Below, piece after piece: positions 19,776-45,739 of a stretch of 64,000 nucleotides of DNA. Under the pieces are notes generated by a model. That model was not told the DNA's origin. It did not search any database and saw only the letters and a list, made by a program, of their open reading frames with translations. Location of the stretch: NCBI GenBank assembly GCA_026416715.1, contig JAOAEQ010000010.1:1-64000 (forward strand), read 5' to 3'. Positions within the stretch are counted from its first letter, which is position 1. Each line of letters starts with the position of its first letter. Source of the DNA: a bacterium. Lineage in GTDB: Bacteria > UBP4 > UBA4092 > JAOAEQ01. The translations under genes were made by a program, and so were the position numbers.

Positions 19776-20924
19776 ATGCCAAAACAGACCCTAGTAAAAG
19801 ATAAACGGAAAGAAACGATTTCCATTTTAGAAACATTATTACAATGCAGTAACGTCTTAAATTCAACCTTACATGAAGAAGAAATCTTTGCCATGGTTAT
19901 GGATATGTCGAAGTCATTATTGAATGCGGAAGCGAGTTCGTTATTTGTCATTTCACCTACCGGAACAGAACTCTATGCAAAAACCGCTCGTGGGAAAAAA
20001 GGCGAATTAATCCAGGGAGTAACCCTTAAATTGGGACAGGGCATCGCGGGTTGGGTAGCGAAAACCGGGAAACCACTATTAGTTCCAAATGTAGCAAAAT
20101 CGAAATATTTTAATCCTTCGTTTGATAGTAAAAGTGGGTTTGAAACAAAGTCAATCATTTGTGTTCCATTGAAACGGAAAGATAAATGTATCGGTTGTTT
20201 AGAGGTGATCAATAAAAAGGATGGAAAGGAATTTACGTTACAAGACCAAGCGATTTTATCAGCGCTCGCTGACCAGATAGCTATCGCATTACAGAATGCT
20301 CATCTGTATGAGGAATTGAAGCAATCATATCTTGCAACGGTACAAACGCTTATTGGGGCAATCGAAGCGAAAGACCGATATACGAAAGGGCATTCCCAAC
20401 GGGTTTCCGAGTATGCGGTAGAAACTGCAAAACAGCTCAATCTTCCGGAAATGACTATTGAAGCGATTCGGATAGCTGCGTTGCTCCATGATATAGGGAA
20501 AATCGGGATTAGCGATAGTGTGCTCTGGAAACCAGATACCTTAACTGATGGAGAACGAGCGATGATTGAACAGCATCCGAGTATTGGCGCAAAAATATTA
20601 AGTGGTGCGGCTTTTCTTGCCGATAAAATTGATATGATTCGGTATCATCAGGAACGATATGATGGTCGAGGATATCCGGAAAAAATAAAAAAGGATAAAA
20701 TTCCGCTCGGGGCTCGAATTATTGCTATTTGTGATACGTTCGATGCATTAACTTCAACGCGACCGTATCGGCGAAGTAAATCTGGTGATGAAGCGATGCA
20801 AATTATTTTAAAAGAAAGCGGTACCCAGTTCGACCCAAAAGTTGCACAGGCATTTGAAAAAGCGTATCTGTCGACTATTCGAAATCGGGTAAAGGAAAAA
20901 GAGGAATTATTAGCCCCTGTTTAA
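19776..20924 (+). CDS. GAF domain plus HD-GYP domain signalling protein
   Basis: The protein has 382 residues and no membrane segment. An N-terminal GAF sensor domain (about 20-175) contains AKTARGKKGELIQGV, GIAGWVAKTGKPLLVPNV and SIICVPLKRKDKCIGCLEVINK. A C-terminal HD-GYP domain (about 190-370) keeps the full motif set: KDRYTKGHSQRVSEYA, LLHDIGKIGI, HPSIGAKIL, RYHQERYDGRGYP and ICDTFDALTSTRPYR. HD-GYP proteins hydrolyse cyclic di-GMP or related cyclic dinucleotides with a di- or tri-metal centre. The GAF domain probably gates this by a small ligand. No GGDEF or receiver domain is present. The glycogen genes that follow lie 84 bases downstream on the same strand, but a regulatory link is only suggested by position. 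Confidence 0.9.
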   Translation: MPKQTLVKDKRKETISILETLLQCSNVLNSTLHEEEIFAMVMDMSKSLLNAEASSLFVISPTGTELYAKTARGKKGELIQGVTLKLGQGIAGWVAKTGKPLLVPNVAKSKYFNPSFDSKSGFETKSIICVPLKRKDKCIGCLEVINKKDGKEFTLQDQAILSALADQIAIALQNAHLYEELKQSYLATVQTLIGAIEAKDRYTKGHSQRVSEYAVETAKQLNLPEMTIEAIRIAALLHDIGKIGISDSVLWKPDTLTDGERAMIEQHPSIGAKILSGAAFLADKIDMIRYHQERYDGRGYPEKIKKDKIPLGARIIAICDTFDALTSTRPYRRSKSGDEAMQIILKESGTQFDPKVAQAFEKAYLSTIRNRVKEKEELLAPV

Positions 20925-21008: not shown

Positions 21009-22268
21009 ATGCAAACTACATTAGCGATGATATTAGCCGGAGGGAAAAGTTCTCCGCAAGATATTCTTTCCCGAAAACGAGCGAAATCAGCGATTCCATT
21101 CGGTGGGAAATACCGAATCATTGATTTTGTACTTAGCAATTGTGTTAATTCGGGTATATATGACATTGGGATTCTTGCGCAATATGCGCCGAAGTCGCTT
21201 GCGGAACATATTAAAGCAGGAAAACCGTGGGATTTAGACCGTCAGGTTGGCGGAGTTAGAATTCTGCAACCGTATCTTGGTCGAACTGAAGAAACTGGTT
21301 GGTATCGTGGAACCGCTGATGCGTTGTATCAGAATCTCGATTTCATTACTCAAAAGAATCCAAATTTTATCCTTGTTCTTTCTGGTGACCATATATATAA
21401 AATGGACTACCGGAAAATGCTCGAATTCCATCAGCAGAAAAATGCGCCGGTCACCATTGCTATTACGGAAGTATCGGAGTCTGATGCGAAACGATTAGGT
21501 ATTGTTCAAGTTGATAGTCGCGACCGGGTCGTTCATTTCGAAGAGAAACCGCAATATACGAAATCCAACCTCGCTTCAATGGGAATATATTTATTTAACA
21601 CCGACATGCTGTTAGAAAAATTGAATGATATTGGAAAGAATGAACGGTATGATATTGTTTTCCATATTCTTATAGAACTAATTCAACAACGGCTCGTGTA
21701 TGCATATCGGTTTTCAGGATATTGGAAAGATATCGGGGCAAACGCAGATTACTGGCAGGCAAACATGGATTTACTTGACGCATCAGACCGAACGGTTTTA
21801 TATAATCCTAGCTGGATTATTCATACTACTTCAGAACGAAAACCGCCGGTGCGATTTCATTCCAACGCTACCGTGCTCAACAGCCTTGTCGCCAATGGTT
21901 GCGTGATTGATGGATATGTAGAACATTCGATTCTTTTTCCTGGGGTACATGTTGCACGTCATGCTCGCGTAACCAACTCGGTGGTCATGCATCGAACCAT
22001 GATAAACGAGAATGCGACTATTGATTATGCGATTTTAGATAAAGATATCTGGATTGGTGCCGATAGTGTTATCGGCGGAAACGATATCCAACCGCAACCT
22101 TATGACCGGCAACAATTAGAACAATATATTACGGTGATTGGGAAAGGTGTCCAAATCCCATCACGAATGCACATTGGTCGAGGATGTCTACTTGACCCTG
22201 ATATTCCGAGTGATTTTTTCACAAATTTAGTTATTCCGAACCATTCATATATCAAGTATCAAAAATAA
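21009..22268 (+). CDS. GlgC-like ADP-glucose pyrophosphorylase paralogue with altered catalytic signature
   Basis: The 419-residue protein has the nucleotidyltransferase domain and C-terminal left-handed beta-helix of bacterial GlgC. Most family segments are intact ([61 protein letters not shown]). However, the pyrophosphorylase loop reads ILAGGKSSPQDILSRKRAKS, where GlgC normally has GG-x-G-x-R-L. The second glycine, the arginine and the leucine are all missing. That arginine acts on the triphosphate, so activity is probably low or absent. A regulatory or scaffold role with the adjacent intact GlgC is likely, similar in logic to GlgD in Firmicutes. Confidence 0.85.
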   Translation: MQTTLAMILAGGKSSPQDILSRKRAKSAIPFGGKYRIIDFVLSNCVNSGIYDIGILAQYAPKSLAEHIKAGKPWDLDRQVGGVRILQPYLGRTEETGWYRGTADALYQNLDFITQKNPNFILVLSGDHIYKMDYRKMLEFHQQKNAPVTIAITEVSESDAKRLGIVQVDSRDRVVHFEEKPQYTKSNLASMGIYLFNTDMLLEKLNDIGKNERYDIVFHILIELIQQRLVYAYRFSGYWKDIGANADYWQANMDLLDASDRTVLYNPSWIIHTTSERKPPVRFHSNATVLNSLVANGCVIDGYVEHSILFPGVHVARHARVTNSVVMHRTMINENATIDYAILDKDIWIGADSVIGGNDIQPQPYDRQQLEQYITVIGKGVQIPSRMHIGRGCLLDPDIPSDFFTNLVIPNHSYIKYQK

Positions 22269-22353
22269 CGATATTGCTGATTACATACTATTATGCAGTT
22301 AGAGCGGTAAGAAGGCTATTTCTTTCACCTCTAACGACAAATAAATTAATGTT

Positions 22354-23595
22354 ATGCGCCAGATAGTAGCTATGATTTTAGCCGGTGGTCAAGGAAACCG
22401 GCTATCCATTCTATCTGAAGAACGAGCAAAACCTGCAGTTCCGTTTGGCGGAAAATATCGACTGATTGACTTTACGTTAAGTAATTGTGTTAATTCCGGA
22501 ATTGTTGATATCGGTCTATTAACTCAATATCGACCGAGGTCACTCTATGAACATATTGAAATCGGTCGACCGTGGGACTTAGACCGTATGGATGGTGGGA
22601 TAACCATTTTACAACCGTACCTTGGGCAGAAACATGCTGAGTGGTACTCCGGTACTGCAGATGCAGTATATCAAAATTTATCTTTTTTAGAAGGGAAAAA
22701 ATGCCAATGGGTTTTTGTCCTTTCCGGTGACCATATTTATAAAATGGATTACACGAAAATGCTCGATTTTCATCGGGAACATTCTGCAGAATTAACCATT
22801 GCGGTTATCCCCGTTCCTATGCAAGAAGCATCACGGTTCGGTATAATGCAACTCGATGCACAAAAACGGATTATTGATTTTGAAGAGAAACCTGCGAATC
22901 CGAAAAGTAACCTCGCATCGATGGGAGTATATTTGTTTCAAAAAGAATTATTAATCGATGCGGTAACTAACGATGCTCAAGATGAATCTAGCGATCATGA
23001 TTTCGGAAAAAATATTATCCATAAATTAATTCATCACCATCGAGTATTTGGTTTTGAATTTCAAGGGTATTGGCGTGATGTCGGAACCGTTGCTTCGTAT
23101 TATGAGGCAAACATGGATTTGTTAACCACACCGCCATTACTTGACCTTGATGATCCAGATTGGGTCATCCATACTAAAAGTGAAGAACGACCGCCCGTTA
23201 AACTCAATAGCACAGCAACAGTCAGACGAAGTCTCGTTGCAAATGGATGTGTGATTAGCGGGTATGTCGAAAACTCGATATTATTCTCCGGTGTAATTAT
23301 CGAACCGGATGTGGTGGTTAAAGATTCGATTATTATGACTGATACTAAAATCAAACCACATACTATCATTGACCGTTGCATAATCGATAAACTCGTCGAA
23401 ATTGGAGAAAATAGCTATATCGGGTATGGTGAAATTGCAAATACTCCAAATTCGGGAATAACCATTGTTGGTAAAGCAGCGCAGATTCCGGCTTCGACCC
23501 GTATAGGACGCGGATGCATAATCGACGCAAAGGTTCAGGAAGCGGATTTTCCTAACCGCAATATTGAATCAGGTACCGTGATTCATCATAGGTAG
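22354..23595 (+). CDS. glgC: glucose-1-phosphate adenylyltransferase
   Basis: This 413-residue enzyme makes ADP-glucose from glucose-1-phosphate and ATP, the committed step of bacterial glycogen synthesis. All signature segments are intact: [57 protein letters not shown] (catalytic Asp), FEEKP and YWRDVGTV. The last 120 residues are the beta-helix region with hexapeptide-like turns, which carries oligomerisation and allosteric sites. It lies 85 bases after its degenerate paralogue, so the two are probably co-expressed and may form a mixed tetramer. No glgA or glgB is in the window. Confidence 0.95.
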
Positions 23596-43441: not shown

Positions 43442-45739
43442 TCAGCTCGCGCCGACTATCTTAACTTCTAGCTCTAAATCAATATTAAATTCTCTTTTCA
43501 CCTTTTGCTGAACAAGGTTAATCAGTTCTAGGCAATCCTGTGCTGTCGCATTACCAACATTAACGATATAATTTGCATGTTTCTCTGAAATCATCGCTCC
43601 ACCTATTCTGGTTCCTTTCAATCCAGCACGGTCAATCCATCGTCCTGCTCCTTCACCTTTCGGATTCCGAAAAAAACAACCTGCGCTCGGATATTCTAAC
43701 GGTTGTGTTGCCGCTCGCCGGTCGGTATATTGCTGCATTTTGGCTAATATTTCCTGCTTATTACCCGGCAGCAATTTCAATAAACATTCTACAATAATTA
43801 CTTTATCAAGATTGGTTTTATGTTCATCAAATGTTACTTCTTCTTTTGTTAAAACTTTAATATTTCCTTCAAAATCTACAATCGTTATCGTAGCAATACA
43901 TTCACTAATCGAATGGTTAAAAGCTCCAGCATTCATATATATCGCTCCACCAACGGTTCCAGGGATGCCAACAAGCGCTTCCAATCCGGTTAATTCCGCA
44001 GCCGCAGAAAATTTTACTAAATCCGGTAACATAACTGCGGCACCGCAACGGATTAACAGCGTATCCACTTGCTCAATGTGTTTAAATCCTTCACCGAGTT
44101 TAATCGTTATCCCAGGGATACCGTTATCTCGCACCAATATATTCGACCCAGCGCCAAGGATAAATGGCGTAATTCCTTTATGTTTCGCATAGTGGAGAAT
44201 TTGAGTCAAGGATTCGATGTTTTCCGGGATAACTAATAGTTCTGCTTTTCCTCCGATTTTAAGCGTCGTATAATCTTTCATTATCGCTTGCGAAATGACT
44301 TTTCCCTGTATCGGCGGAAAAGGGTCATCGACACTCAGCCTAGTTTGCATTTTTTGTTTCAAGCGAGCCACCAAATCATCTGCCAATCGCCAAATATCTC
44401 CCGCACCTAAATAAATTACAATGTCACCAGGTTGAACGGTTTTAATAAGATAATCATTAATCTCGTCACGGTTAGGAATATAAGTGATACGTTCAAATCC
44501 ATTGATTTTAGCAGCGTCAATAATTGTCTGACTTGATATACCCGGAAGTGGCGTTTCTCCAGCAGCATAAATTTCTGTAATAATCAATTCATCGGCAGCT
44601 GTAAAACTTTGTCCAAACTGCTCTGCTAGAAATTTGGTACGAGTATATCGATGCGGCTGAAACACAGCTATAACCCGTTTTGCATCACCGGTTCTACACG
44701 CGGCAATCGCTGCTGCAACCTTACTTGGGTTATGCGCATAATCATCGACAACGGTTATACCATTCACTACACCCTTAATTTCAAACCGTCTCCCTACCCC
44801 GTTGAATCCTTCCAATCCCGGAAGAATTTGCGCAATATCGAGTTCTAAAACGATACCAACCGCAATCGCAGCTAATGCATTCTGTACATTATGTTTACCT
44901 GGCATTCGAATAGCTACTTCCGCTTTCTTTTCATTCTTATAAATTAAATCAAATCTACTCCCGAATTGGACGTATCGAATATTTTCTGCACGAACATCAG
45001 CTTCCCGATGTAAACCAAAAGTCACCACCGGCCGAATTGACTTTTCGACTAATGTTCGTGCGGTCGGATCATCATAGCCAATCAAAACAAAACCATCCGG
45101 TGGTACTAAATGCATGAATTGAATAAATGCGGTAACGATATTTTCAAATTTTCCATCGTAATGCTCTAGATGGTCTGCTTCAATATTATTAACAACCGCA
45201 ATTTTGGGGGTTAGCCGCAAGAACGATTTATCACTTTCATCGGTCTCCGCAACCAGCCATGTCCCTCGTCCGAGCATTGCAGAACTGCCAATTTCTTGAA
45301 CCTTCCCACCGATAATTGCTGTTGGTTGTAATCCCGCATGGAGCAACATTGAGAATATCATCGAACTAGTAGTAGTTTTACCATGGGTTCCTGCGACAGC
45401 GATAACCTGTCGCGTTTTCATTAAATCAGCTAATAAATCTGCCCGATGCCAAATTGGAATATTCCGTTTTTTTGCTTCGACTAATTCTGGATTTTCTGGA
45501 TCTATTGCGCTCGAATAAACGACTAAATTTGCCCCGTTAATATTTTCGGGTGCATGACCGAAATACACTTTTGCCCCTAACTGTTGCAACCGCTGTGTCG
45601 CTTCAGAAACAGATTTATCAGAACCGGACACTTCGTACCCTAACTGGAGATATACCTGAGCTAGTCCATTCATACCTGTTCCACCGATTCCGATAAAATG
45701 AATATGTTTTACTGCCGAGGATATCTGTTGTTGCTGCAT
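43442..45739 (-). CDS. murC-murB: fused UDP-MurNAc-L-alanine ligase (MurC) and UDP-MurNAc dehydrogenase (MurB)
   Basis: The 765-residue fusion has residues 1-455 as MurC: HIHFIGIGGTGMNGLA, the P-loop VAGTHGKTTTSSMIFSM, VNNIEADHLEHYDG and VVDDYAHNPSKVAAAI. After a short linker, residues 472-765 are MurB: LKIGGKAELLVIPE, LGAGSNILVRD, LEALVGIPGTVGGAIYMNAGA, and the active-site segment YPSAGCFFRNP. The usual catalytic serine proton donor is replaced by Cys688. The enzyme would reduce UDP-GlcNAc-enolpyruvate and then add L-Ala, two consecutive steps of precursor synthesis, on one chain. No separate murB exists in the cluster. Fusions of these genes occur in a few phyla. murG precedes it by 24 bases. 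Confidence 0.95.
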   Translation of the reverse strand: MQQQQISSAVKHIHFIGIGGTGMNGLAQVYLQLGYEVSGSDKSVSEATQRLQQLGAKVYFGHAPENINGANLVVYSSAIDPENPELVEAKKRNIPIWHRADLLADLMKTRQVIAVAGTHGKTTTSSMIFSMLLHAGLQPTAIIGGKVQEIGSSAMLGRGTWLVAETDESDKSFLRLTPKIAVVNNIEADHLEHYDGKFENIVTAFIQFMHLVPPDGFVLIGYDDPTARTLVEKSIRPVVTFGLHREADVRAENIRYVQFGSRFDLIYKNEKKAEVAIRMPGKHNVQNALAAIAVGIVLELDIAQILPGLEGFNGVGRRFEIKGVVNGITVVDDYAHNPSKVAAAIAACRTGDAKRVIAVFQPHRYTRTKFLAEQFGQSFTAADELIITEIYAAGETPLPGISSQTIIDAAKINGFERITYIPNRDEINDYLIKTVQPGDIVIYLGAGDIWRLADDLVARLKQKMQTRLSVDDPFPPIQGKVISQAIMKDYTTLKIGGKAELLVIPENIESLTQILHYAKHKGITPFILGAGSNILVRDNGIPGITIKLGEGFKHIEQVDTLLIRCGAAVMLPDLVKFSAAAELTGLEALVGIPGTVGGAIYMNAGAFNHSISECIATITIVDFEGNIKVLTKEEVTFDEHKTNLDKVIIVECLLKLLPGNKQEILAKMQQYTDRRAATQPLEYPSAGCFFRNPKGEGAGRWIDRAGLKGTRIGGAMISEKHANYIVNVGNATAQDCLELINLVQQKVKREFNIDLELEVKIVGAS

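Follow-up and report, generated by a model that had tools for sequence, protein, structure and literature searches.

Tandem GlgC paralogues, one with an eroded catalytic loop, as a putative division-of-labour AGPase beyond the Firmicutes

Bacterial AGPase has been described as a homotetramer in Gram-negative bacteria and as a GlgC/GlgD heterotetramer in Firmicutes, with both GlgC and GlgD homologues forming tetramers (PMC10461462, PMC9093745), and GlgD is reported to be inactive but to modulate GlgC (PMC9093745). The plant AGPase large subunit is a duplicated copy that has lost catalysis and modulates the active subunit (PMC3585822). Activator-site roles have been assigned to Arg40, Arg52 and Arg386 of the E. 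coli enzyme (PMC6773804) and to Lys404 of the potato enzyme (PMC6218581), and Arg40 is missing from the GlgC proteins of Bacillus and Ruminococcus (PMC6773804).

In the 64,000-nucleotide stretch of contig JAOAEQ010000010.1 analysed here (the window), two GlgC-like genes that are 50% identical over their length lie in tandem, and we propose that the upstream one (copy 1) encodes a putative non-catalytic regulatory subunit (Table 1). Its loop region reads AGG-KSSPQ-DILSRKRAKSAIPFGGKYRIIDF, and alignment to the E. coli AGPase gives the replacements G30S, R32P, L33Q and P43S, while the downstream gene (copy 2) has an intact GQGNRL; both open reading frames and the initial annotation of a destroyed loop next to a canonical copy are thus confirmed. 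Each of the 47 canonical sequences compared (42 GlgC that share this broad type, plus 5 outgroup GlgC) has the loop Gly and Arg as well as an unbroken K42-P43, and because of this invariance the changes in copy 1 are not chance variation.

Table 1. Coordinates of the two genes and of the positions discussed in the text (window numbering)
Feature	Position	Strand	Basis
Copy 1, GlgC-like D-I paralogue with eroded loop, 419 aa	21009..22268	+	ORF; below NCBIfam GlgC cut-offs; trees
Eroded loop of copy 1, G-G-K-S-S-P-Q replacing G-G-x-G-x-R-L (E. coli 27-33)	21039..21059	+	Reading; alignment to E. coli AGPase; column counts
Retained activator phosphate-pocket residue R24 of copy 1 (Arg40 in E. coli)	21078..21080	+	Column counts; PMC6773804
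K26-S27 of copy 1 where E. coli has K42-P43, the Pro being lost	21084..21089	+	All 47 canonical copies have K-P, none of the 41 D-group and GlgD copies does
Retained activator phosphate-pocket residue R36 of copy 1 (Arg52 in E. coli)	21114..21116	+	Column counts; PMC6773804
Retained D127 of copy 1 (D142 in E. coli)	21387..21389	+	Alignment, column counts
Retained glucose-1-phosphate residue K180 of copy 1 (K195 in E. coli)	21546..21548	+	Alignment, column counts
I216-V217 of copy 1 replacing F240-G241	21654..21659	+	Seen in most of D-I and in many GlgD copies
Retained D241 of copy 1 (D276 in E. coli)	21729..21731	+	Column counts
Activator-site residue K345 of copy 1, retained as Lys (Arg386 in E. 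coli, Lys404 in potato)	22041..22043	+	Alignment; PMC6773804, PMC6218581
Gap between copy 1 and copy 2, 85 bp, modest hairpin	22269..22353	+	Reading, folding z
Copy 2, canonical GlgC of 413 aa and putative catalytic subunit	22354..23595	+	Above NF003670 (526.6 of 470) and TIGR02091 (462.1 of 424.9) cut-offs
Intact loop of copy 2, G-G-Q-G-N-R-L (AGG-QGNRL...)	22384..22404	+	Direct reading, column counts

Of the alignment columns with 95% or higher conservation in GlgC, copy 1 retains 84%. It also keeps the counterparts of D142, E194, K195, S212, Y216, D239, W274 and D276, residues that E. coli mutagenesis places in the glucose-1-phosphate site. Its AlphaFold2 model (mean pLDDT 79) finds its best match in E. 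coli AGPase, with a TM-score of about 0.78. The earlier claim that the sugar-binding and fold segments are kept agrees with these eight residues and the AGPase-like model, but F240 is replaced by Ile and G241 by Val. Its profile scores, 450.9 of 470 for NF003670 and 389 of 424.9 for TIGR02091, are both under the curated cut-off.

Copy 1 therefore resembles canonical GlgC in fold, length, sugar and metal residues, activator pocket and its identity to copy 2, but differs in having neither G-x-G-x-R-L nor K-P and in failing both cut-offs that copy 2 passes. With GlgD (TIGR02092) it shares being a GlgC paralogue that has lost the loop and K-P, has kept Arg40 and Arg52 and is paired with a canonical GlgC; unlike GlgD, which has largely lost D142, K195, D276 and W274, copy 1 retains these residues, and it is longer (about 419 against about 370 amino acids). 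The gene order also differs, since the damaged copy comes first in the window and GlgC comes first in most of the Bacillota loci seen. The TIGR02092 score was discarded as evidence of GlgD identity, because the cut-off of 236.6 bits is passed not only by copy 1 (281) but also by the canonical copy 2 (266.6). The plant large subunit is alike in principle but stems from a separate duplication in the cyanobacterial/plant lineage; in the potato large subunit both motifs are altered too, but more mildly.

The pair is preceded by gyrB, gyrA and a GAF/HD-domain gene and followed by an ABC-2 transporter set. In the single other genome of the phylum that was compared (G001, same class, different family), the order gyrB-gyrA-copy 1-copy 2-ABC is the same, and one base separates the two GlgC genes. 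Copy 1 of G001 is a full-length open reading frame with Pro at R32 (loop GGRSHPL) and is 54% identical to copy 1 of the window, versus 60% for the copy 2 orthologues. As the same R32 change recurs in this intact frame, copy 1 is neither a sequencing error nor a decaying gene and, judging from the two sequences, is a maintained gene. The GAF and HD_5 (HD-GYP-like) gene lies at 19776-20924 (+), between gyrA and copy 1, and no such open reading frame is listed there in G001. Within the gap between the two copies, promoter and terminator scans stayed at chance level with no clear candidate, and an Rfam search for regulatory RNA gave no match; the hairpin GTTAGAG...CTCTAAC at 22298-22335 (+) is weak (z about -1.8) and has no T run after it. 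Elsewhere in the genome there are one GT5 glycogen synthase (GlgA, C4:24546-25277) and one GH57-type branching enzyme (BE_C domain, C4:75087-75413), and a search of the genome for a TIGR01515-type GH13 branching enzyme gave no match.

Relatives were sought in 251 genomes across Bacteria, together with a scan of named genomes and three phyla. Many genomes carry a second, loop-damaged (dead) GlgC-like copy, and a canonical GlgC was also present in each genome whose dead copy was read. In trees built with IQ-TREE under a site-heterogeneous model with the loop columns removed (96, then 88 sequences), GlgD formed a separate clade without copy 1 both times (100/100), and the damaged copies other than GlgD fell into three groups, D-I, D-II and D-III. 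D-I comprises sequences from the window's phylum and the phyla of G142, G106 and G122, plus G173, G135 and G195, and spans at least four phyla when these are counted by the grouping of the genome set. Including copy 1, it is a clade of 12 rows at 100/99 when GlgD and the longest branches are left out, and its support is 92/62 with all rows. D-II consists of Chloroflexota and one Armatimonadetes MAG (100/98 to 100/99) and adjoins Chloroflexota GlgC; D-III consists of a KSB1 MAG and its relatives (93/80 and 95/82) and is sister to its own GlgC, jointly at 100/97. When GlgD and the longest branches are left out, the support is 100/99 for D-II and 99/89 for D-III. Better sampling of D-I joins it to GlgD at 95/92, in trees whose deep branches are weak. 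The F240-G241 change is common to D-I and GlgD and mostly missing from D-II and D-III, and copy 1 shows the D-I traits, with [LI] followed by a small aliphatic residue in place of F240-G241, K-P broken and Arg40 kept. From its placement and residues, copy 1 is a member of D-I, an ancient multi-phylum paralogue group that may be the sister of GlgD. In some D-I genomes the dead copy and the canonical GlgC are not adjacent. Two very divergent GlgD-like copies of 322 amino acids (L017, 530-1498, +; L177, 5723-6691, -) adjoin a canonical GlgC and have a common branch longer than 2 within GlgD. Two D-III copies (L046, 3030-4271, +; L169, 5562-6761, -) have the loops GGKTGQY and GGRIGQY, respectively, and lie away from the canonical GlgC.

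Hypotheses on the origin of the pair were judged by the AU test, which is somewhat liberal for groups suggested by the tree. A local duplication, in which the four copies of the window's phylum form a clade, was rejected (p=0.014), at the borderline with a smaller D-I sample (p=0.0499). One origin of all damaged copies and GlgD was rejected (p=1.2e-5 and 3.7e-6), as was the union of D-I, GlgD and D-II (p=0.005), and copy 1 was not recovered inside GlgD in the trees. A sister relationship of the window-phylum copy 1 to GlgD alone was not rejected (p=0.35), nor was the grouping of GlgD with Bacillota GlgC that a Bacillota-only duplication would give (p=0.17); because of the latter, a shared origin of D-I and GlgD is no more than likely. 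The tests, together with D-I, D-II and D-III forming clades without GlgD, support a separate rise of the dead copies of D-II and D-III, an origin of these two groups independent of GlgD and, in all, at least three origins of dead copies in bacteria. The initial annotation had suggested that a catalytic/regulatory pair arose from a GlgC duplication and looked to phylogeny for independence from GlgD. A GlgC-derived pair of one catalytic and one non-catalytic member remains the best reading, but a recent or local duplication does not (p=0.014), and copy 1 does fall outside the GlgD clade, although a separate origin from GlgD is neither shown nor excluded.

The erosion differs between and within the groups. 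D-I lesions lie at the loop, with the sugar and metal sites mostly kept, and range from intact loops (GGKGSRL in G252; GGKGDRL in G142, G253 and G275) through partial ones (GGKEDRL, GGKGNHL, GGKADRL, GGRAERL, GGKSERM, GGKGEGL, GGRGEQL and GGSGEEL) to those destroyed in the window (GGKSSPQ) and in G001. This range looks like repeated loop erosion after one old duplication. D-II and D-III resemble copy 1 in being loop-damaged, in keeping Arg40 and in having a canonical GlgC in the same genome, but differ in their separate origins and in their lesions, which are K42 to E/D and Y114 to Q in D-II and G30 to V/T/F, with D276 to Y in 9/9, in D-III. The K-P dipeptide is broken in 41/41 copies of the D groups and GlgD.

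Arg40 is kept in the same 41/41 copies and in all canonical copies except those of the Bacillota type. Every one of the 61 Bacillota pairs (L062-L129) combines a GlgC without Arg40 (V, L, I, M, T or N instead) with a GlgD that has both Arg40 and Arg52; we found no statement that GlgD keeps Arg40 in the open-access literature searched. The Lys404-type position follows the same trend in 39/61 Bacillota pairs. In the window, Arg40 is present in copy 1 and in copy 2, so a hand-over of the effector site would be incomplete, and the site need not sit on copy 1. The residue pattern is most simply explained if the damaged subunit has been kept in order to bind effectors, and a structural reason could also account for the conservation of Arg40.

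We consider it probable (roughly 0.7), from sequence and by analogy with described enzymes, that copy 1 does not catalyse and instead binds effectors as one of the two subunit types of a heteromeric AGPase formed with copy 2. This reading is based on several lines of evidence: (i) the loop and K-P are lost and the sugar, metal and activator residues are kept; (ii) G001 has the same pair, in the same order, with the same R32P change; (iii) copy 1 belongs to a well-supported D-I clade (100/99) that joins GlgD (95/92), and a canonical GlgC is always co-present; and (iv) GlgD is reported to be inactive yet to modulate GlgC, and GlgA and a GH57 branching enzyme are encoded in the genome. Having lost the loop Arg and Gly, copy 1 would be unable to make ADP-glucose; it would form a mixed tetramer with copy 2, as in the GlgC/GlgD enzyme of Firmicutes and in plant AGPase, and would supply effector binding and allosteric control that tune the output of ADP-glucose, which would feed the single GT5 glycogen synthase and the GH57 branching enzyme of the genome. 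The regulatory role is suggested by the biochemistry of GlgD and the plant large subunit and by the presence of Arg40 in every dead copy examined, and the 61 Bacillota pairs, with Arg40 on GlgD and not on GlgC, also speak for the subunit reading. Against it, the two genes lie apart in some D-I genomes, and an intact G-x-G-x-R-L persists in the D-I members of G252 and of the phylum of G142, which may be active.

Those intact loops also bear on an unlikely, though not negligible, alternative, namely that copy 1 still catalyses through a remodelled nucleotide loop, using another NTP or another sugar-1-phosphate or reacting slowly. The retention of the glucose-1-phosphate and metal residues would fit such an activity, as would the finding that plant large subunits are catalytic in some species (PMC3585822), but an Arg that is invariant in the 47 canonical copies is Pro both here and in G001, G30 and K-P are lost as well, and the many different loop replacements within D-I look like relaxed constraint and not like a new specific site. 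Less probable still is a role of copy 1 outside any AGPase, in which the protein by itself would sense or bind glucose-1-phosphate or ADP-glucose; a sugar site kept without the loop would suit this role, but a canonical GlgC is always co-present and often adjacent, and GlgC/GlgD homologues are tetrameric (PMC9093745, PMC10461462).

As to how the pair arose, the tandem arrangement and the weak deep branches of the trees would be compatible with a GlgC duplication within the window's phylum, independent of all other dead copies. We give this little credence, since the AU test rejects a joint clade of the copies of both genomes (at the borderline with the smaller sample) and copy 1 groups with the D-I copies of other phyla. 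That copy 1 is a decaying gene heading for loss is scarcely credible: it has diverged from its G001 orthologue more than copy 2 has, but it is a full-length frame with the same synteny in both genomes, conserved across two families of the class and retaining most of the strongly conserved GlgC columns.

Whether loop-dead regulatory AGPase subunits have evolved at least three times in bacteria, and far outside the Firmicutes too, each time losing the loop and K-P and keeping Arg40/Arg52, with the Arg40 of Bacillota pairs residing on GlgD, we regard as evenly balanced; the novelty of GlgD-like subunits outside the Firmicutes is judged here against the open-access literature. If true, division-of-labour AGPases would be a common bacterial architecture and not an exception of Firmicutes and plants, and dead partners with at least three origins would be natural replicates of the division of labour between subunits, making its rules testable: which parts always go, and whether the effector pocket always stays. 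The reciprocity of Arg40 in 61/61 Bacillota pairs leads to a prediction of where the activator site lies in GlgC/GlgD enzymes, and pairs of this kind are probably misannotated when both genes are named as GlgC enzymes. Elsewhere in the window, a 765-amino-acid open reading frame at 43442-45739 (-) encodes a MurC-MurB fusion, with MurC-type Mur ligase domains ahead of MurB domains.
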